NCBI GenBank assembly: GCA_900107185.1
Contig: FNPA01000008.1
Coordinates: forward strand, 62,001-126,000
Direction of reading: 5' to 3'
Source of the DNA: Ruminococcaceae bacterium YAD3003
Lineage (GTDB): Bacteria > Bacillota > Clostridia > Saccharofermentanales > Saccharofermentanaceae
Length of the DNA: 64,000 nucleotides
The notes under the pieces were generated by a model. That model was not told the origin of the DNA and did not search any database. It saw only the letters and a program-made list of their open reading frames with translations. Made by a program: the position numbers and the translations under genes. Positions 1,430 to 17,950 of this stretch are shown one piece after another (the stretch's first letter is position 1; each line of letters starts with the position of its first letter).

Positions 1430-4400
1430 ACTTCCACGAACTCTCCGTAACGGACAAGATACAGAAGCTTATGGGCAACATTAAGTCCTTCCTCTTCACA
1501 TGCCGCAGCATAACTGTTCAGCTGGAAAGCGTGTCTCTCCAGAGCTTCTTTCGCTCTGTCTTCCTGACTAACGCCACTTAAACGGTCCGTCTTGTAATCA
1601 AGGATCGTATAACCTTCACCGGTCTTGTAGAGCAAATCGATGATACCCTGAACCAGTACAGAATCTCCTTCCGTACCATCAACGTATACCGAGAATACAA
1701 TAGGCTTTTCCGAACGGGCCGAACCATCTGCAAAGCTGTTGATTACATCTTCGCATTGAGGAGCCTTACAAAAAGCTTCTATACCTTCCCTGAACTCAAA
1801 TGCCACATCCCGCGCATTATCAGGCGAGCAAATGTTGAGATAGCCTTCATTTATCAGGGACTCTATCTCCAGTTCAAACATTGTTGAACCGTTTCTGATG
1901 CCTTCCAGATCAATGAATCTCATTATTCTGTGCAGAATAGTACCTTTCGCGGCAGCAGTAAGCATTGATACATTAGGGCTCTCAAAATCATCTATGCTCT
2001 TGATATGTAAATCAACATGAACATTATCTGAAGAGTTAGTTTCTCCTGTAATGCCTGTTACAGATAACTTGAACGGAATCTCAACGCTGTCCTGATATTT
2101 ATACTCAGGGAAAACGAGTTTACCTTCATCATCAAATTCGGGTTTTGCCTTTTGGGCATCTTCCTGATCTGCAGCTTCAGAAACTTGGGTAACATTAGCC
2201 TTTTGAGCTTCATAGAGCTCCGCGATCTGTTCAGCAGATATCTCACAAACCTCAAAACCTTTAGCCTCATTGCCATCCAGATCGTAGAAAGCAACGGCAT
2301 TGCTCTGTTTCAAATCACCTATTTCAGCAATCTGTCTTAACTTCTCGCCATCTTTACTTCTGGCCAGCGCACTAAACAAACAGTACGGGAGCTTCATGTC
2401 CCCTGCGAGCCAGTGTCTCTCATCAAACTGTTCTTCTTCGAAATCGATTGACTGTGCAAAGGCTTTTCTCATCGGACTTGCTTTGGTCTTATCGTCAACA
2501 TCGCAGCTGGTGATTATGGACAGATTTTCCTCAGCACGTGTAAGAGCAACGTACAACAGTCTGCACGTTTCCGCATTAGCAGCAAGTCTCATTTTCATCT
2601 TATATATGTACTGTTCAAATGAATGCCTTCTAGTGATTGCATCAGCATCGTAATCCTCGGTAAAGAATCCGTAATCACGGTCAAACATAATGCTCTCAAG
2701 AGTATCCTTCTGTTCATCTGAACCGCCTGTAGCAACCAAAATAACAAACGGGAATTCCAGACCCTTACTCTTGTGAAGTGTCATAGTAGTAATCTTGTCT
2801 TTATTTGCATCTGTTACTTCAATATTTGCCTGCTTGATATGTATCTTCATCTGCTCGAGCTCATCAGCTATGCCTGACAAATCAGATCCTCTTAGCTTGA
2901 AACTCTCTGATAACCAATCCTTGAAAACATCGAACTTGCTGCTATCACCTTCTCTTGCCTCGATAGTAGCCTTAATTCCGGTTTCTCTGTAGACAAGTTC
3001 AATGATGTCATCAATATCTGTAACCATAGAACTCATTCTTATCTTGTCGAAAACATCAACAAACGTCTTTACACGTCCAGCAAGTTCGGAATCATTCTTT
3101 TCAATGAACACTCTGAGCCTTAACATCAATGGTTCTTTTTCCAGAGACGGGCCGTTAAGTTCATGAATGAATGCCTGGATCTGAGCTAATTCAGAAATAG
3201 TAAAATTCGAGAACTTATAGTTAGAGAACATTACGCTCGCCAAATACTCATCTCTGTATTCATTACCAAGACAAATGAGGAAATTGATAATTCTGTGGAT
3301 ATCGAGATCTTCAAAGACATCCGTTGTAAATCTTCCGGAGGCTTTTATTTTTCTGCCATCATTTAATGTGCAGCCGTTAAGATATCTGGCTATAGTTTCA
3401 GCCTGATTATTTGATGCTGTAAGAATGCAGATATCTTTTAATTCAGTTGGTGATCCATCAACTCTTGTGCATTCTTCAAGATATCTTTTTACTTCACTCT
3501 CAACTGCTGCAAATACTGCTCTTGATTCCGGCTTTGTCTTGTCACCATCGTCTTTTACTGGAACATTTTTGTCAGTAACGACAATTCTTGGAACGGGTCC
3601 GTGTCTGGTCTCCGAAGCCTTACTCAAACGCTGTTTTTCATCATATTCAATTTCAGATGCATCTTTGCTCATGATCTGTTTGAATATATAGTTCGAGAAT
3701 GCAAGTACTTCGCAGGTACTTCTATGGTTTTCCTTAAGATAATGAAGGTTGCCCTTCTTTCTTCCGCTAATAATGTCATCCATGCTTTTACCGAATATCT
3801 TCGGGTCAGCAAAACGGAATTTATAGATACTCTGCTTAATATCTCCGACTCTGAACACATTGCCGGATTCTCTGTTAAAACAGGCTATTATTGCATCCTG
3901 AAGTCTCGTATTGTCCTGATATTCATCAACGAAAATCTCTTCGAATTTCTCACGGTAAAACGTTGCTGCTTCTTCATGTTTTAAAATTGCATACGCAGTG
4001 TGCTCCAGATCAGAATAGTCCATACCATGCATATTATTCTTCACTTCTGCATAGTACTTATCAGTTTTCTTGATCAATTCCACAAATGACCTGCAGGCTC
4101 TGGTGCCTTCCTTCTGATTCGCAAGTATCTGTTCCGTTGTGAAACCTATAAGATAACTGTATTCCGGGGGTAAGTCATAAGAATTAGCATACTTGATATC
4201 ATCCCATTTTCCCGGTGATATAAAATGTCTCAGTGACACAATAGCAAGGAAAGCCTTGTCATCTCCTCTGAAATCCGCACCCTGGAAAACATTGCTGAAT
4301 TTGAGTTCGCCGAGTTCCTTAAGCGGAGTAAGACTGACAAAGAAATCTGCACCTTTATGAGTTTCATAATAATCCAGGGCATAATCAATTCCGCTGATGA

Positions 4401-5220
4401 GTTTACCCAGGAATTCCTCATTAGACATGTCTTTAATAATCTGGTAGTTTTCATGACACTCGAGCACAGAATCGAATTCGCTGTCCAACAGCATGGATTT
4501 CATTGATTCAAGGTATTCTACTATTGTGCGTGGTATATCATTGTCATCTTCGAAAAATGCTATTTTACCTTCGAGGTCGCGCTTTTCGCGTTTTTGAATG
4601 AGATCTTCACACTTCTGAATATAGTCAGGCAAACTTCTCAATGTCGTATACGTACTTGTTACGATTCCTACAAGAGAACCATCACTTCTGCCGTCACCAA
4701 ATCTTCTCGTAAAACTTATGAAGTCATCATCATCGGAATCGCATTCCTCATACATAGCTTTGATAGCATAATCAACAGCATTCTGAAGTAAAACTCCCTG
4801 CTCGCTCTCGCTTAAGATTCTGCATGAAGGATCAGTAAATTCAGCCATCGGTCCATCTTCAAGGATATATCCCTTCTCCTTGATAACACGGGAACAGAAT
4901 CCGTGCATAGTCTGGATATATGCGTTAGGCAGAAGATCTATCTGTGTGGAAAGGAGCGAAGCTGATTCATTGTTACCGGAAGATACAGCTTCATTTCTTA
5001 AATCCCTGAGCTTATCTTCTATCTTGTCAGCCATATGTGAAGCGGCATCTTCAGTAAATGTAACGACCAGCATTCCATCAACCGTAAGCTTTCCGGTCTT
5101 TACTTCCTCACCTATCCTGGCAGTAAGCACTGTTGTCTTACCGGAACCAGCAGACGCGGAAACGAGGTTGTTATTAAGTTCTGCATCAATTATTTTTTGC
5201 TGTTCATCAGAAAACTTCAT
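1426..5220 (-). CDS. addA: AddA helicase-nuclease subunit
   Basis: AddA is the SF1A (UvrD-like) motor and 3'-strand nuclease of the AddAB complex, which resects double-strand breaks for RecA-dependent recombination. The 1264 residues show Walker A (SAGSGKTTVLTARI, residues 23-36), motif II with DEYQDNTRLQ (family usual DEYQDTN), motif III GDIKQSIYKFR, late helicase motifs TMTLHKSKGLEFP and LLYVALTRA, and a C-terminal RecB-type nuclease with ILDYKTDRL. The length matches the family. The ATG at 5220 follows AGGAGG, three bases after the addB stop, so the two genes are coupled. The last codons overlap tadA by 4 bp in the convergent direction. Confidence 0.95.
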   Translation of the reverse strand: MKFSDEQQKIIDAELNNNLVSASAGSGKTTVLTARIGEEVKTGKLTVDGMLVVTFTEDAASHMADKIEDKLRDLRNEAVSSGNNESASLLSTQIDLLPNAYIQTMHGFCSRVIKEKGYILEDGPMAEFTDPSCRILSESEQGVLLQNAVDYAIKAMYEECDSDDDDFISFTRRFGDGRSDGSLVGIVTSTYTTLRSLPDYIQKCEDLIQKREKRDLEGKIAFFEDDNDIPRTIVEYLESMKSMLLDSEFDSVLECHENYQIIKDMSNEEFLGKLISGIDYALDYYETHKGADFFVSLTPLKELGELKFSNVFQGADFRGDDKAFLAIVSLRHFISPGKWDDIKYANSYDLPPEYSYLIGFTTEQILANQKEGTRACRSFVELIKKTDKYYAEVKNNMHGMDYSDLEHTAYAILKHEEAATFYREKFEEIFVDEYQDNTRLQDAIIACFNRESGNVFRVGDIKQSIYKFRFADPKIFGKSMDDIISGRKKGNLHYLKENHRSTCEVLAFSNYIFKQIMSKDASEIEYDEKQRLSKASETRHGPVPRIVVTDKNVPVKDDGDKTKPESRAVFAAVESEVKRYLEECTRVDGSPTELKDICILTASNNQAETIARYLNGCTLNDGRKIKASGRFTTDVFEDLDIHRIINFLICLGNEYRDEYLASVMFSNYKFSNFTISELAQIQAFIHELNGPSLEKEPLMLRLRVFIEKNDSELAGRVKTFVDVFDKIRMSSMVTDIDDIIELVYRETGIKATIEAREGDSSKFDVFKDWLSESFKLRGSDLSGIADELEQMKIHIKQANIEVTDANKDKITTMTLHKSKGLEFPFVILVATGGSDEQKDTLESIMFDRDYGFFTEDYDADAITRRHSFEQYIYKMKMRLAANAETCRLLYVALTRAEENLSIITSCDVDDKTKASPMRKAFAQSIDFEEEQFDERHWLAGDMKLPYCLFSALARSKDGEKLRQIAEIGDLKQSNAVAFYDLDGNEAKGFEVCEISAEQIAELYEAQKANVTQVSEAADQEDAQKAKPEFDDEGKLVFPEYKYQDSVEIPFKLSVTGITGETNSSDNVHVDLHIKSIDDFESPNVSMLTAAAKGTILHRIMRFIDLEGIRNGSTMFELEIESLINEGYLNICSPDNARDVAFEFREGIEAFCKAPQCEDVINSFADGSARSEKPIVFSVYVDGTEGDSVLVQGIIDLLYKTGEGYTILDYKTDRLSGVSQEDRAKEALERHAFQLNSYAAACEEEGLNVAHKLLYLVRYGEFVEV

Positions 5221-9923: not shown

Positions 9924-9953
9924 AAAGCGGGTGAATATTCACCCGCTTTTTTA
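9924..9953 (+). terminator. Intrinsic terminator after pilT
   Basis: A perfect self-complementary block, AAAGCGGGTGAAT/ATTCACCCGCTTT (9924-9949), is followed by T residues. It abuts the stop of the leftward PurA-like gene and may act in both directions, although the minus-strand T tract is poorer. Confidence 0.85.
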
Positions 9954-11078
9954 CTTGTTTGAATGTGTAACTTCAATTCCATATTTGTCTTTGCAGAAAT
10001 ATATATCACTTATAGAATGCGATAGGGCTTTCTCTACTATTTGCTCCTGATCCAGGTTACCTTCCTGAGAGAGAAATCTCTCATTTGTCTCATCGAAATG
10101 AGTAATAAATAAGGATATCTTGCGAGCTTTAGCACCATCTTTTGATACACGTTTCAGGAGTTCTTCAAAATCCGTTCTTCCAAACCTCATACTGCCCTGC
10201 CACGGATTGCTCTTATTGGTCTCATCGTAAAAATTCAGATCCTTATCCTCATTGAAAGGTCCTGCACCATGTCTTGTGATATATGTTCTGGTTACATAGA
10301 AGACTTCATCGACATTAATCCCATAACTTTGTGCCAGCATAGCGGGGTTAGCGAGTGTTGTGCAGCTCGATGTTGTATGAGGCCACAGGTCTTCCCTGTC
10401 GCTGTCCAGCAAAAGGCCCTGACCACTCTCGAAAACTATATTATCGAAGCCTCCGAGGAATGAGGTTTCATCGCTGATTACATTAACATGTTCAATAGCT
10501 CTCTTAAGATACTTGGTATATATCTTAATATCGAAATCGTAATCAGGAGAAAGCTTTCCAAAAGTCTTAAGGACATAGTTTTCTTTTATTTCCTCTAACC
10601 GTTTAACAATCTCAGCAGGCGTGCTGTTCTTAACTTCCCCCAGAGTCATTCCGAATCCGCTCTCAGTCCTTACCCTGGCTTCCCAGATACCCATTCCGCA
10701 GCTGCCGTGTTTCTTATCGCCACGCCCTGTCTCTTTCATCTGGTTTATAGCTACATCGAAAAGAAGAACTATATTAGTTTTTTCACAACCGTAGATCTGA
10801 GGAATCTCTCCAACCTTGGAAAAGTCTTCCAGTTCTTCTTCGAGCTTATATAAATCAGGATAAAACGTGCTCGCCCAGTAAGTTACAGCGCCATTAAAAG
10901 AACCGGAAGAAAGTTCGTGAAACACAAACCTTCTTCCGTCATTCTTCTCAACTGTGTGTCCTGATTGTGCGCCACCGTTATGGCGGATAACAACATTCCG
11001 GCCAGATCTTGTCAGATAATCAGTAACAAGGCCTTTGCCTTCATCGCCATAATTGGCGCCTATTACAGCGTAGTTCAT
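9951..11078 (-). CDS. Divergent, shortened adenylosuccinate synthetase (PurA) homologue
   Basis: PurA joins IMP and aspartate using GTP to form adenylosuccinate. This 375-aa protein is about 50 residues shorter than ordinary PurA. It keeps the N-terminal loop YGDEGKG with the catalytic Asp at residue 12 and the catalytic His of SGHT at residue 41. The rest of the site is altered: RHNGGAQSGHT instead of the usual GG-x-NAGHT, HGSCGMGIWEA where PurA has its IMP loop, and ESGQGLLLD and TRHGAGPF in place of EGAQG and TRVGEGPF. No good SD is seen. It starts 6 bases after the VWA gene stop, which suggests translational coupling. It is last in a three-gene unit with a kinase-like and a VWA protein, not with purine genes, so a role outside housekeeping AMP synthesis is likely. 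The substrate is unknown. Confidence 0.72.
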   Translation of the reverse strand: MNYAVIGANYGDEGKGLVTDYLTRSGRNVVIRHNGGAQSGHTVEKNDGRRFVFHELSSGSFNGAVTYWASTFYPDLYKLEEELEDFSKVGEIPQIYGCEKTNIVLLFDVAINQMKETGRGDKKHGSCGMGIWEARVRTESGFGMTLGEVKNSTPAEIVKRLEEIKENYVLKTFGKLSPDYDFDIKIYTKYLKRAIEHVNVISDETSFLGGFDNIVFESGQGLLLDSDREDLWPHTTSSCTTLANPAMLAQSYGINVDEVFYVTRTYITRHGAGPFNEDKDLNFYDETNKSNPWQGSMRFGRTDFEELLKRVSKDGAKARKISLFITHFDETNERFLSQEGNLDQEQIVEKALSHSISDIYFCKDKYGIEVTHSNK

Positions 11079-11084
11079 TAACTA

Positions 11085-11927
11085 TCAGAATATAACGTTC
11101 TTCAGCGCTTTGTTAATAATGTTTTCAACGGTTTTATCGAGGTCTCCCAAGATCTCAGAAGCCTTGATTCCCTTACATTTGCAAATAGCGGTGATAATGA
11201 TCTCAGGCAGATAAGTTATTTCAGTTTTTGAAATAAAAATCGTTCTTCCGGGAATAACGGGAGATACACCGCCGATCATGATATGGAAAAGGTTGTACTT
11301 CTCCTCGCACTCTGCAACCGCTTCATCGATCGAAAGGGTCTTATGAACATCATTGAAAATACTCTTAATATCTGATGCTTTGAGATCAGGGTGATTAGGA
11401 GCATCACCGATTGTAAATGCAAAGCCCTTCGCATTTCTCTTCTTTATTGAGTCGGTATCTGTGTGATTAGCAAGGAAATACCAGAAAAGAGCATAGTCTT
11501 CAGGTCCGTCACCGCCTCTGCCTTCGAGCCATAATTCCAAAAGCTGCTCAGCAATACGGATATCGGATTCAAACTGGGTTACCTGCAAAGGTGCATCGTC
11601 AACAACATCACCTACAGCAGCAAACATGAGCTGAGGATCAGGAATGACATTAGATGCATAAAGTTTCTTCATGAGTTCATTCAGGGAGTTCTTAATGATC
11701 TCTTCAGAAAGATAACCCATTGAACCTGTTACATCGACACCGATTGCAATAGGTGTCGAATTCGGATGCTCATCGTTATCTCTTGATTCTCTCATTGAGA
11801 TAAACTTAGGATTAAACTTATCCAGGAGCTGCTTGTTCTTAAACAGATCATTGACCGAAGATTCATCAATAGATCTCGTAGTCTTTAATCTTGACCAGTC
11901 TTTTGCAGTATAACTTCCGTAACCCAT
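11085..11927 (-). CDS. VWA-domain (MIDAS) protein
   Basis: This 280-aa protein has no signal peptide or membrane helix. A von Willebrand A fold is indicated by AIGVDVTGSMG near residue 65 (D-x-T-G-S-M MIDAS, binding Mg or Mn), an acidic AAVGDVVDDAP strand, a Gly-rich ELWLEGRGGDGPEDYALFW segment and FAFTIGDAPNHP as a later metal-site strand. The N-terminal SMRESRDNDEHPNSTP looks like a conserved leader to the first strand. VWA domains of this kind act as protein-assembly or signalling modules; in TerY-type systems they pair with kinases. It is flanked by a kinase-like protein upstream (22-nt gap) and the PurA homologue downstream. The exact function is unknown. Confidence 0.8.
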   Translation of the reverse strand: MGYGSYTAKDWSRLKTTRSIDESSVNDLFKNKQLLDKFNPKFISMRESRDNDEHPNSTPIAIGVDVTGSMGYLSEEIIKNSLNELMKKLYASNVIPDPQLMFAAVGDVVDDAPLQVTQFESDIRIAEQLLELWLEGRGGDGPEDYALFWYFLANHTDTDSIKKRNAKGFAFTIGDAPNHPDLKASDIKSIFNDVHKTLSIDEAVAECEEKYNLFHIMIGGVSPVIPGRTIFISKTEITYLPEIIITAICKCKGIKASEILGDLDKTVENIINKALKNVIF

Positions 11928-11949
11928 GATTATTTATTTCCTTTCGCTT

Positions 11950-12852
11950 TTATATATCAAGCAAATCGAACTTGTGAAAATTGTGTCCGCTGAAACCGTT
12001 CATTATTACATTGTCCCAACGTTCAAAATCTTCATATGCGTTTGAGGCAGGCTCACTATTTAAGAACTCTTCATATAATTTCGGAGGCGCGCTGGTACAG
12101 TGAATCCCTTTTATCAGTTCACGCATACCCTTCAGGTATTTCTTTTCCCTGCCTGCCGGAATAATGTTATGCCAATTATCGAGCAGGAACATCTCATGTG
12201 TTTTGGGATTAATGAACGCATCCTCTATGCTGAGATCCTGCATATCGATTTCACTGAATTCCAATAAACAGCCTATGTTCTCAAATCTGGAAATGATCCA
12301 GGCAGTTGTCTGAGGCTTTAATCCTTCCGAGAACCATTCAAGAGGATAGATGTTTTCAGCCTTATCCAAGAAGACAGCAAATGTACCATCTTCGAGTTCG
12401 CCCGCGAAATAGACGTGCGGAATATATTTATTGAGGCCCTTTATATCAGCAGACGGATACCGAATTTTGCCTAAATTGCTGATAAAAATGTCAGCTACAT
12501 CTTTGCTATCGAAAACAATTACAACTACATCTTTGCCAATGTAAACGGTTCTGCCGGGTCTGTCATAAATTGCAGAGATATATTTATCGATTACTCTGCC
12601 ATTCTTCTGCACGAAATTCTTAATGCTGCTCCCCGAAGAATAGAAACCCAGAATATCGCCATCTGAATTTACGGCATCATTATTGTATTTATCTTTTTGG
12701 AGCATCTCGTCTCTGGTCTTAAGAAAACCCTTAAAATCAGAATCAGACAAATAGACTTTCGAGCCGCAAAAACGGCAGTTCATCTCGCCTCTGGAACTGA
12801 CGCGATATTCAGAACCGCAATTATCACATCTGATATTTAATAGCTTGCTCAT
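11950..12852 (-). CDS. Zinc-ribbon protein with a possible degenerate protein-kinase-like domain
   Basis: Residues 1-35 form a clear zinc ribbon, CDNCG...CRFCG. The remainder (300 aa in total) is not a familiar family by eye. A segment near residues 205-230, with a D-L-S-x-E-D-x-x-I-N pattern then FLLDNW, resembles the catalytic loop and metal-binding Asp of a protein-kinase fold (usual HGDL...N, then IDF/IDW). A preceding strand-rich part could be a reduced N-lobe. The chain ends in an aromatic GHNFHKFDLLDI tail. SD AGGGAT precedes the ATG. A recognisable promoter sits between this gene and the upstream acyltransferase, making it first in a unit with the VWA and PurA-like genes. The kinase link is inference. 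The zinc ribbon is seen directly. Confidence 0.6.
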   Translation of the reverse strand: MSKLLNIRCDNCGSEYRVSSRGEMNCRFCGSKVYLSDSDFKGFLKTRDEMLQKDKYNNDAVNSDGDILGFYSSGSSIKNFVQKNGRVIDKYISAIYDRPGRTVYIGKDVVVIVFDSKDVADIFISNLGKIRYPSADIKGLNKYIPHVYFAGELEDGTFAVFLDKAENIYPLEWFSEGLKPQTTAWIISRFENIGCLLEFSEIDMQDLSIEDAFINPKTHEMFLLDNWHNIIPAGREKKYLKGMRELIKGIHCTSAPPKLYEEFLNSEPASNAYEDFERWDNVIMNGFSGHNFHKFDLLDI

Positions 12853-12887
12853 AGGACTATCCCTGCTTAAAAATAATTTACATAAAC

Positions 12888-12916
12888 ATTATATTACATA
12901 AACAGTGAAATGCGAA
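12888..12916 (-). promoter_or_regulatory. Promoter of the kinase-like/VWA/PurA-like unit
   Basis: On the minus strand TTCGCA (12916-12911), a 17-nt spacer and a perfect TATAAT (12893-12888) lie right after the acyltransferase stop codon. A start near 12881 leaves a short leader. This separates the three downstream genes as their own transcription unit, although read-through from upstream remains possible. Confidence 0.6.
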
Positions 12917-15324: not shown

Positions 15325-17214
15325 TTACTCAATCTTTCTCATGCATCTCATAGCATTTAAAATCGCAATGATGAGAACACCGACATCTCCGAATACAGCC
15401 AGCCACATATTAGCAATTCCGAGAGCGCCGAGCACAAGGATTATTGCCTTTACTCCCAGCGCGAAAATAATATTCTCCCAGACGATCCTCATCGTCTTTC
15501 TTGCGATCTTTATGCTGTCTGCGATCTTCGACGGTTTGTCATCCATCAGGACGACATCCGCAGATTCTATTGCTGCATCAGAACCCATCGCGCCCATGGC
15601 AATTCCGCAGTCTGCACGCATCAGTACAGGCGCGTCATTGATACCGTCTCCGACAAATGCCAGCCTGCCCTTGCCGTCTTTCAGCAGTTCTTCCACTTTA
15701 GCAACTTTATCTGCAGGCAGGAGCTCTGCAAAAAAGCCCGTTAGTCCGAGCTTGCCCGCAACATTCTCTGCAACGCTCTTCTTGTCTCCCGTAAGCATCA
15801 CGAGGCGCTTAACACCGACATTCTTAAGACTCTTGATTGCTTCTTCAGAATCTTCCTTTATCTGGTCGTTGATAACGATGTGACCTAAATACTCACATAT
15901 GCCATCATCTTCTCTTGCAATGTGGATGATCGTTCCCGTCATATGGCAGTCGTGCCAGTCAGCCTTGCACATTTCCATGAGCTGGCCGTTACCGCAATAG
16001 TATGTCTTGCCTTCAACAACTGCCTTTACGCCTTTTCCTGCGATTTCCGTGACTTCGCCTATCAGGGACTTATCGATATGGCCCTCGTGGGCTCTTACGA
16101 TCGACTGTGCCACAGGATGGCTCGAGAAGCTCTCGCAGCAGGCCGCAATATCCAGAAGTTCAGCCTTGCTGATCAGGTTGGGATGAACGTCATCTACCGC
16201 AAACACGCCCTTTGTAAGCGTTCCGGTCTTATCGAATACTACCGTATCGATCTTGGACAACACTTCCATATATCCGGCACCCTTTATGAGGATACCATCC
16301 TTAGAAGCACCGCCGATACCGCCGAAGAAAGACAGCGGAACGGATACTACGAGAGCACACGGGCAGGATACTACGAGGAATACGCATGCCCTGGTAAGCC
16401 ACGTCTTCCAGACTTCACCATCACCGATCCCGAGGATCAAGGGAGGAATGATACCCAGGATAAGCGCTGCGATAACAACGATAGGCGTGTAATATCTTGC
16501 AAACTTGGTAATGAAATTTTCAACTTTAGCTTTCTTATCCGAAGCATTCTCAACGAGCTCTAAGATCTTCGATACCGTGCTCTGTCCGAACGTGGATGTG
16601 GTCCTGACCTTGATAACACCCGTAAGATTAAGCGTTCCGGAAATGACATTGTCGCTCAATGCCTTATCAACAGGCGCGGATTCACCCGTAAGAGCTGCCT
16701 GGTTAACAGAGCTCTCTCCTTCGATGATGACACCGTCTAACGGGATCTTCTCACCGGGCTTAACGATAATTATCTCACCGACTTCAACTTCATCAGGTGA
16801 TACTTCAATTTCTTCTCCGTCCCTTATCACAGTTGCACTGTCAGGTCTGATGTCCATCAGCTTTGCGATCGATTTTCTCGAACGGCCGACTGCTATGCTC
16901 TGGAACAACTCACCTACCTGATAAAAGAGCATTACCGCAGAAGCTTCAGGATACTCACCTGTTCCAAAAGCACCGACAGTTGCTACCATCATGAGGAATT
17001 TCTCATCGAAGATCTGACCATGGATCAGATTGATGAATGCAGTCTTAAGGACATCGTATCCTGCGATTACATAAGGTATTGCATAGAGTATGAGTTCAGC
17101 CCACCATGGAAGCTCGATAAAGTGCAGTGTAATTGCTATTACCGCTAGTAATGCAAGTGCAACGATTATCCTTATCGTCATTTTCTTCTGTTTTTTGGTG
17201 AGCTTATACTTCAT
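15325..17214 (-). CDS. cadA: Zn/Cd-type P1B ATPase (CadA/ZntA family)
   Basis: A heavy-metal efflux pump in the inner membrane. The 629 residues carry the actuator TGES near residue 176, the transmembrane CPC (VSCPCALVV, residues 284-286), the phosphorylation site DKTGTLT (Asp328), a mid P-domain TGDKKS and GDGINDAP. The N-terminal metal-binding HMA domain usual for this family is missing from the chain and is encoded just upstream as a free protein. VVFDKTG and VVSVPLSFFGG after CPC fit the Zn/Cd/Pb group rather than copper pumps. The start follows TTGGAG. The gene is last in the cadC-HMA-cadA operon behind a leaky hairpin. Confidence 0.9.
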   Translation of the reverse strand: MKYKLTKKQKKMTIRIIVALALLAVIAITLHFIELPWWAELILYAIPYVIAGYDVLKTAFINLIHGQIFDEKFLMMVATVGAFGTGEYPEASAVMLFYQVGELFQSIAVGRSRKSIAKLMDIRPDSATVIRDGEEIEVSPDEVEVGEIIIVKPGEKIPLDGVIIEGESSVNQAALTGESAPVDKALSDNVISGTLNLTGVIKVRTTSTFGQSTVSKILELVENASDKKAKVENFITKFARYYTPIVVIAALILGIIPPLILGIGDGEVWKTWLTRACVFLVVSCPCALVVSVPLSFFGGIGGASKDGILIKGAGYMEVLSKIDTVVFDKTGTLTKGVFAVDDVHPNLISKAELLDIAACCESFSSHPVAQSIVRAHEGHIDKSLIGEVTEIAGKGVKAVVEGKTYYCGNGQLMEMCKADWHDCHMTGTIIHIAREDDGICEYLGHIVINDQIKEDSEEAIKSLKNVGVKRLVMLTGDKKSVAENVAGKLGLTGFFAELLPADKVAKVEELLKDGKGRLAFVGDGINDAPVLMRADCGIAMGAMGSDAAIESADVVLMDDKPSKIADSIKIARKTMRIVWENIIFALGVKAIILVLGALGIANMWLAVFGDVGVLIIAILNAMRCMRKIE

Positions 17215-17254
17215 GGTCTTATCTCCAAGTGAAAAATCCTTCGATCTTTAGTTC

Positions 17255-17290
17255 AAATAAAAGGGATGCCTGAATATTTGAGCATCCCTT
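17255..17290 (-). terminator. Partial terminator between the HMA gene and cadA
   Basis: AAGGGATGC (17290-17282) pairs perfectly with GCATCCCTT (17269-17261) in minus-strand RNA, followed by UUAUUUG. The T tract is interrupted, so it is probably an attenuating terminator that makes the small chaperone more abundant than the pump. Confidence 0.6.
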
Positions 17291-17296
17291 CTATAA

Positions 17297-17515
17297 TTAC
17301 AATAATACGGTGCAGTCAGGTTCTACTTTTGCAATTGCTTTAACAGCAAGCTTTACGATCTTGTCGAATTCTGCATCATCTGCTTCCAAAGTCATCTTCT
17401 GCTTAATGAAGCTTACTTCACATGCCTTGACTCCAGGGATCTTCAGGACGGCTTCCTGCATCTTCATTGCGCAGTTAGCGCAGTCAAGATCTTCAAGTTC
17501 AAATGTTTTCTTCAT
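17297..17515 (-). CDS. Free heavy-metal-associated (HMA) domain protein
   Basis: This 72-aa protein is essentially one ferredoxin-like HMA domain. The metal site is DLDCANCAMKM (C-x2-C at residues 13-16), with the typical IPGV and later hydrophobic strands. SD AAGGAG lies 8 nt before the ATG. It sits between cadC and cadA. The DCANCA sequence is typical of the N-terminal domain of ZntA/CadA pumps, so this looks like the pump's own metal-binding domain encoded separately, acting in trans as a Zn/Cd donor or sensor. A copper chaperone is less likely given the neighbours. Confidence 0.85.
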   Translation of the reverse strand: MKKTFELEDLDCANCAMKMQEAVLKIPGVKACEVSFIKQKMTLEADDAEFDKIVKLAVKAIAKVEPDCTVLL

Positions 17516-17573
17516 AGGTGTATCTCCTTCTAATTTAAATACTATATTATGCGTTCATTTCATAACGAACGGA

Positions 17574-17903
17574 TCATTCTGTAATGTGCTCGTATCCCTG
17601 ACCGATTATGGATTTGACATGTTCGTCTGCCAGACGGTAGTAGATCGTCTTGCCTTCTCTTCTGGAAGCAACGAGATTTGCTGCCTTAAGGACCTTCAGC
17701 TGATGTGATATCGCCGACTGCGTCATCTTCAGAAGATCGGCAATTGCACATACGCACATTTCATCTTCGTAAAGCGCATACATGATCTTGATTCTTGTTG
17801 TATCTCCAAAAACCTTGAATAAGTCACCTAGATCTTGTAGGAGCTCATCACTAGGCATATCGGCTTTAATATGATTTAACAAAGCATCGTGATTATGAGG
17901 CAT
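17574..17903 (-). CDS. cadC: ArsR/SmtB-family metal-responsive repressor (CadC-like)
   Basis: A winged-helix dimer that represses the efflux operon and releases DNA on metal binding. The 109-aa chain has VFGDTTRIKIMYAL, the metal-binding helix EMCVCAIADLL (C-x-C as in CadC), the recognition helix TQSAISHQLKVLKAANLV and wing RREGKTIYYRL. A His/Asp-rich N-terminus (MPHNHDALLNHIKAD) may add ligands. ATG at 17903 is chosen because AAGGAGAT precedes it; a longer in-frame start at 17945 would lie inside the operator and has no SD. The gene is first in the cadC-HMA-cadA operon, directly behind its promoter and operator. Confidence 0.9.
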   Translation of the reverse strand: MPHNHDALLNHIKADMPSDELLQDLGDLFKVFGDTTRIKIMYALYEDEMCVCAIADLLKMTQSAISHQLKVLKAANLVASRREGKTIYYRLADEHVKSIIGQGYEHITE

Positions 17904-17924
17904 ACCGGCATCTCCTTCCCGCTC

Positions 17925-17950
17925 AACATATGAACAATTGCTCATATGTT
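17925..17950. promoter_or_regulatory. 12-2-12 SmtB/CadC operator
   Basis: Half-sites AACATATGAACA (17925-17936) and TGCTCATATGTT (17939-17950) are separated by AT and match as an inverted repeat at 11 of 12 positions. This is the classical layout of ArsR/SmtB-family zinc or cadmium operators. It lies just downstream of the predicted start of transcription and just before cadC, so the repressor would control its own operon. Confidence 0.85.

Follow-up and report, generated by a model that had tools for sequence, protein, structure and literature searches.

Adenylosuccinate synthetase (PurA, Pfam PF00709) has a short paralogue in phages, PurZ/PurZ0, the 2-amino-adenylosuccinate synthetase of Z-DNA phages, all phage members of which carry Ser in place of the catalytic Asp (PMC12884076). 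The phage homologues of PF00709 number 481, with 147 phage sequences in the PurZ group; the PurA group comprises 251 sequences, of which 246 are prokaryotic and few come from phages (PMC12884076); by subtraction, most of the remaining phage homologues are neither PurZ nor PurA. VWA proteins, for their part, are found with kinase-like partners in Ter/TerY-type stress systems, for which a nucleotide-type metabolite has been proposed (PMC7824862). They also occur in conflict systems centred on ADP-ribosylglycohydrolase (ARG), whose operons encode a vWA chaperone and a Nudix regulator proposed to act with ADP-ribose, the molecule sensed by NrtR (PMC9503650), and in MoxR–vWA chaperone pairs, where the vWA protein has a metal-dependent co-chaperone role. 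Here we analyse a unit of three genes, termed K, V and P, in which a kinase-like protein, a VWA protein and a PurA relative stand side by side. It lies in a stretch of 64,000 nucleotides (hereafter the window) from Ruminococcaceae bacterium YAD3003 (contig FNPA01000008.1, positions 62,001 to 126,000).

In the open reading frame (ORF) listing of the window, the unit consists of three consecutive ORFs on the minus strand: K (11950–12852), a protein of 300 amino acids (aa) with a zinc ribbon and a predicted pseudokinase domain, as judged from the ORF, a structural model and the family alignment; V (11085–11927), a MIDAS VWA protein of 280 aa; and P (9951–11078), a short PurA-like enzyme of 375 aa identified by its PF00709 match, its position in a tree and its motifs. 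The intergenic gaps are 22 bp between K and V and 6 bp between V and P (median V–P gap in bacteria: −4 bp). We propose, with a probability of about 0.5, that K-V-P is a purine-nucleotide ligase of altered specificity, assembled by an adaptor and a VWA protein and linked to the NAD/ADP-ribose state of the cell.

Composition sets this unit apart from each of the systems above. As in Ter/TerY-type systems, a VWA protein accompanies a kinase-like partner, but no PP2C, TerB, TerC or TerD gene lies beside the window unit, K is mostly a pseudokinase, and a PurA-like enzyme is present instead. ARG-centred systems share with it an NrtR-type Nudix transcription factor and a vWA chaperone; however, their core enzyme is an ADP-ribosylglycohydrolase and not a PurA homologue. 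PurA and adenylosuccinate are absent from the text of PMC9503650, and no ADP-ribosylglycohydrolase was annotated beside the units that we read, although no systematic search for this gene was made. A metal-dependent co-chaperone role of V would recall MoxR–vWA pairs, but the window unit has no adjoining AAA+ MoxR ATPase, and a J-domain or zinc-ribbon pseudokinase is found instead. No description of the K-V-P combination was found in the open-access literature, subscription-only papers being outside the scope, and the only association of NrtR with vWA found there was that of the ARG-centred systems. In composition we regard the unit as wholly new, whereas the folds of its parts are known ones, in agreement with an earlier note on this DNA, made from the sequence alone, which had considered the combination unfamiliar.

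The association of the three genes was examined in both directions. In GTDB genomes, taken one per species, a scan with a VWA profile found at least 538 relatives; among the best 80 loci, which were read, 53 were K-V-P, 19 K-V-V-P, seven V-P and one V alone, i.e. K-V(-V)-P in 72/80 and P in 79/80. The same scan of IMG/VR viral contigs returned 531 relatives, and the best 80 loci comprised 37 K-V-P, 37 V-P, three K-V and three other arrangements. Conversely, a reverse IMG/VR scan from P placed V beside P in 75/80 viral loci, and the five exceptions include L266 and L312, which lie close to the ends of their contigs, and L278, whose contig carries V slightly farther off. As the VWA-based and P-based scans agree, P is tied to V in both search directions. 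At closer range, 10 of 34 congeners possess a P clearly nearer to that of the window than to ordinary PurA. V adjoins P in 10/10 of them, and in all 10 the arrangement is K-V-P or K-V-V-P with order and strand preserved, whereas the flanking genes differ each time. Duplication of the V gene is common in Clostridia. The earlier note had read the three genes as an independent unit and proposed a neighbourhood search for VWA–PurA pairs, and both the block with changing flanks and the co-occurrence in other genomes support its reading.

Outside its pockets the unit is sporadic. In an even draw of the phylum, V was detected in only 1/399 genomes, that of the window itself, so that the distribution is patchy and accessory-like. 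The unit is also found in phages (among others Vibrio phage phiKT1024, Rhizobium phage RHph_Y65, mycobacteriophage I3 and approximately 190 mycobacteriophages) and on megaplasmids of Allorhizobium, Acetobacter, Rhodococcus and Tsukamurella. This patchy spread, with carriage by plasmids and phages, fits a role in conflict or stress. Its carriers thus number in the hundreds among bacterial species and phage contigs, but annotation gives its genes only as ‘adenylosuccinate synthetase’ or as ‘hypothetical’. The unit probably accommodates a large part of the phage PurA homologues that the counts of PMC12884076 leave outside the PurZ and PurA groups, a remainder that the P family fits, and it gives them a testable context. 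Two particular arrangements were noted. On the Rhodovulum plasmid pRSMBA (L233), K and V stand with a divergent NrtR-like gene and no PurA-like gene alongside, a decayed or P-less version; in some T4-like phages (L196–L199, L210), tail-sheath stabiliser and neck genes adjoin V or lie between V and P.

P is a re-shaped PurA relative. It matches PF00709 (1.1e-39, positions 4–278) but fails the NCBIfam cut-offs both of the PurA equivalog (111.6 bits versus 402) and of PurZ (55.9 versus 300), and a PADLOC scan of P gave no match. In a phylogenetic tree, P proteins of the triad form a single group apart from ordinary PurA and from the PurZ-type protein (99/96 support, 100% of bootstrap trees), the PurZ type being represented by one long-branched row only, the PurA-like protein of Arthrobacter phage Misaeng (GSEAKG). 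The genome has, on another contig, an ordinary full-length purA (C18:38240–39502; 526 bits, versus 136 bits for P), the second copy whose presence the earlier note had proposed to verify, and P was rejected as the housekeeping purA. This ordinary PurA (L001) displays EGQLGTMKDPDMG where the canonical enzyme has EGAQGTLLDIDHG, the usual IMP-contacting Gln being shifted by one residue, which raises the question whether the housekeeping PurA of this clade is itself unusual.

The catalytic core of PurA is retained in P, as the earlier note had stated for Asp and His. Besides the fold and the GDEGKG motif, Asp12, Lys15, His41 and Gln220 (E. coli Asp13, Lys16, His41 and Gln224, the last in EGAQG) are unsubstituted in 137 non-redundant sequences, one row being gapped. 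The pockets, however, are changed. The Val of TRVGAG, which lines the base pocket of PurA according to the PurZ/PurA structure paper (PMC8342488), is replaced by His270 (10269–10271, minus strand), invariant in 137/137 non-redundant homologues, this equivalence being set from the TRVGAG/TRHGAG alignment. The TTGRxRR loop of PurA, which holds aspartate and makes the Arg303 contact, is replaced in the alignment by NPWQGSMRFG (10179–10208, minus strand). The family form is NxWQGxxR, with Gln294 in 137/137 and Arg298 in 135/137 (Lys in two); TTGR was not found in the P family members compared, and the ordinary PurA of the same genome has GATTGRPRR. Further differences from PurA are the length (375 versus approx. 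425 aa, with a shorter C-terminal part), HGSCGxGI in place of GTTGRGIG, a guanine-recognition TKxD that has become THxD/N or TCxD across the family, and the almost constant company of V. Like PurZ, P is a short PurA paralogue occurring in phages, and some databases put a similar label on it. In contrast with PurZ, it keeps the catalytic Asp (136/136 sequences with the column filled) and forms a separate clade, and a PurZ or Z-DNA role was rejected on these grounds. The phage-record label ‘2-aminooxy adenylosuccinate synthetase’ was regarded as a transferred annotation and not used as evidence.

V had no match in Pfam or PADLOC scans and corresponds to PHROG 2971 (2.7e-38). Its AlphaFold model (pLDDT 91.5) matches solved vWA/I-domains (integrin I-domains, Ku80, Rpn10), and the MIDAS residues D65, T67, S69, T156 and D175 are near-invariant in 79 non-redundant homologues. 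Within the D-x-T-x-S motif (11721–11735, minus strand), D is found in 79/79, T in 78/79 (S once) and S in 79/79, and V thus displays both the vWA fold and the MIDAS of this family. Solitary V homologues were also seen with neither P nor K nearby, at L068 (congener G031, 4246–5160) and L093 (7001–7873).

The AlphaFold model of K (pLDDT 91.4) shows a zinc ribbon followed by a linker helix and then a kinase-like domain (residues approx. 75–300), and Foldseek retrieved mainly protein kinases from the PDB (E from 4e-6). The K orthologue of mycobacteriophage I3 passes the cut-off of Pkinase (8.7e-9), with a weak DnaJ match. Two types of N-terminus exist. In the family alignment, clostridial units have a zinc ribbon (CxxC...CxxC, with cysteines C9, C12, C26 and C29 in the window), for which PADLOC gave its single, weak match on K (14.3 bits, E 0.0035). 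A J-domain with HPD or HTD is found in K of phages, Alphaproteobacteria, Actinobacteria, Desulfosporosinus and one Lachnospiraceae unit (DnaJ E of 1.3e-5 and 1.7e-4 for J-type K), and HPD is present in most phage forms. Of 97 non-redundant K proteins, 19 keep the HRD-type Asp and two that of DFG, and His219 and Trp227 are nearly invariant; judging from these residues, the family is best called a pseudokinase. At 12 phage loci devoid of K (L050, L051, L166, L175, L181, L184, L190, L192, L193, L200, L206, L219), a different small ORF of zinc-ribbon type lies directly upstream of V. One member of this small family matches Zn_ribbon_Top1 (3.3e-5), and it is perhaps a replacement for K.

The link to NAD comes from neighbouring genes. 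All 11 J-type bacterial units read have an NrtR-like gene, with NUDIX and winged-helix parts, immediately beside them or divergent from them: those of pAtS4e, Acetobacter (L054, where this gene is frame-split), Rhizobium and Rhodovulum plasmids, Pseudoroseomonas, Desulfosporosinus, one Lachnospiraceae and four actinobacterial plasmids. These 11 units are not all independent lineages, three being from Rhodococcus. The Pfam NrtR_WHD cut-off was passed at L053, L137, L145 and L147 (four of the five J-type units tested) and at the zinc-type L110. The NrtR-like gene of L056 fell below the threshold, and that of L057 is a NUDIX with a weak NrtR-family match. Plasmids L232, L233, L235 and L236, fetched after the pattern had been noticed, show the NrtR-like gene in 4/4 cases; L234 and L237, fetched alongside, have neither an HPD-bearing K nor an NrtR-like gene. 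Some phage units, approximately 7–12 of the 80 viral loci, lie near NAMPT, NMN-adenylyltransferase/NUDIX or NADAR genes.

Other neighbours give no functional lead. Among 111 immediate neighbours of bacterial units, Pfam identified 136 families, none in more than three and with no shared phage gene family; PADLOC likewise found no family in more than three and no enrichment of known defence families. As these families are so diverse, the unit is self-contained. The earlier note had suggested a stress or defence module. The unit is indeed accessory and borne by plasmids and phages, yet large phages carry it themselves and the immediate neighbours of the bacterial copies are not enriched in known defence families, so that a defence role is no more than possible.

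We suggest that K, V and P act as one working unit, probably a complex, in which P would be a GTP-type purine-nucleotide ligase of PurA descent. With its Asp/His/Lys/Gln machinery retained, P may activate an oxygen on a purine-like base via phosphoryl transfer; it would recognise a different base and join to it a nucleophile other than free L-aspartate. V would serve as a metal-dependent docking scaffold, and K as an adaptor bringing clients, its pseudokinase being fused in Clostridia to a zinc ribbon and in most other bacteria and in phages to a J-domain, which would presumably act together with Hsp70. K and V would then decide when or on what P acts. The product might be either a purine nucleotide in modified form or a conjugate of nucleotide and protein, serving as a signal or as a protective or conflict metabolite; a nucleotide signal or modified nucleotide, already put forward by the earlier note, appears a reasonable idea. 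In J-type bacteria the unit would probably be controlled by the NrtR-like ADP-ribose sensor and come on when NAD is consumed, its output being used under NAD stress or phage conflict. The fuller proposal, of a nucleotide-conjugation system of bacteria and large phages in which a ligase derived from PurA, and changed in both base and nucleophile, makes a purine signal or nucleotide–protein conjugate, has its targets chosen by K and V and is switched on by ADP-ribose upon NAD attack, is put forward tentatively and is itself somewhat doubtful. If P does make a new purine derivative, this would be new chemistry for nucleotide signalling or phage–host conflict, with a testable NAD/ADP-ribose link.

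Three observations weigh against the ligase proposal or parts of it. Zinc-ribbon units of Clostridia, including that of the window, are rarely found with an NrtR gene (a single case, L110), and the NAD link may therefore not hold for the window unit. The NAD genes of phages could be neighbours simply through shared early-gene clustering. Lastly, the K of the window carries Asp at both positions mostly lost in its relatives, so this copy may retain some kinase activity. The nearest competing explanation, which we consider rather unlikely, is that P attaches a purine nucleotide to an amine or another group of a protein client presented by K, through J-domain and Hsp70, and by V, through MIDAS docking; a residue of the protein would then be the nucleophile, which would explain the loss of the pocket for free aspartate. 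The replacement of the aspartate-binding loop by one with an invariant Gln and a near-invariant Arg is in line with this, as is the company of two types of client-handling partner, J-domain and vWA. The presenting part, however, is variable, with two V genes in bacteria and no K in some phages.

An auxiliary role in nucleotide metabolism, in which K and V would help in assembly and P would simply supply phage or host with adenylosuccinate or a dNTP precursor, could account for the PF00709 homology and for the phage copies lying among nucleotide and NAD metabolism genes. It is clearly unlikely, as the host already has purA, the altered base and aspartate pockets are conserved, and metabolic PurA has no known strict coupling to V and K. 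Slightly less probable still is a catalytically dead P acting as the nucleotide-sensing subunit of a K-V complex: the shorter C-terminal part and the altered TKxD would suit it, but catalytic residues unsubstituted throughout the family go beyond what is expected of a dead enzyme. The adjoining VWA and kinase-fold proteins had reminded the earlier note of TerY-type phosphorylation. This comparison did not survive, given the poorly conserved HRD and DFG Asp of K, the lack of adjoining PP2C or Ter genes at the window unit and the many phages with V and P but no K, and we give such a system very little credence. Equally improbable is a phage virion-assembly chaperone, with bacterial copies as prophage remnants. 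The unit is common in large phages, in some of which it lies near T4-type tail and neck genes, but its bacterial copies are maintained intact in diverse chromosomal settings and have no common phage family among their neighbours.

Upstream of K, a promoter-like TTCGCA-N17-TATAAT (12888–12916, minus strand) matches the consensus at 10 of 12 positions. The sequence that the earlier note had taken as separating the unit from the acyltransferase gene is indeed present; in this AT-rich region, sites of such quality are not rarer than chance (10 found, 7.8±3.4 expected). A TATAAT approximately 35–40 bp upstream of K also occurs in five congeners (L058, L059, L060, L061, L070), and a promoter serving the whole unit is therefore likely. 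The −10 box is spanned by an exact 11-bp direct repeat, TGTTTATGTAA, with a period of 16 (12878–12904, minus strand; sequence scan). When that stretch was resampled under a first-order Markov model, 1.7% of the resamples contained a repeat of 10 bp or more within 30 bp. As it was not found in relatives of the unit, this repeat is only a possible, weak candidate for an operator. At the other end, a terminator-like hairpin of 26 nt with 11 pairs (9924–9949), its T-run on the plus strand, lies between P and the convergent pilT-like gene.

According to Pfam, the neighbours of the unit in the window are acyltransferase, pilT-like and metal-ATPase genes. The acyltransferase gene upstream is a separate gene, whose congener homologues lie elsewhere (in G007, on contig C37, with the triad on C5). 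Homologues of the acyltransferase and pilT-like genes are far apart or on different contigs in relatives, so that no clean empty site could be read. Farther along the window (15325–17945), a heavy-metal P-type ATPase adjoins an ArsR-like regulator and resembles an ordinary metal-efflux pair.

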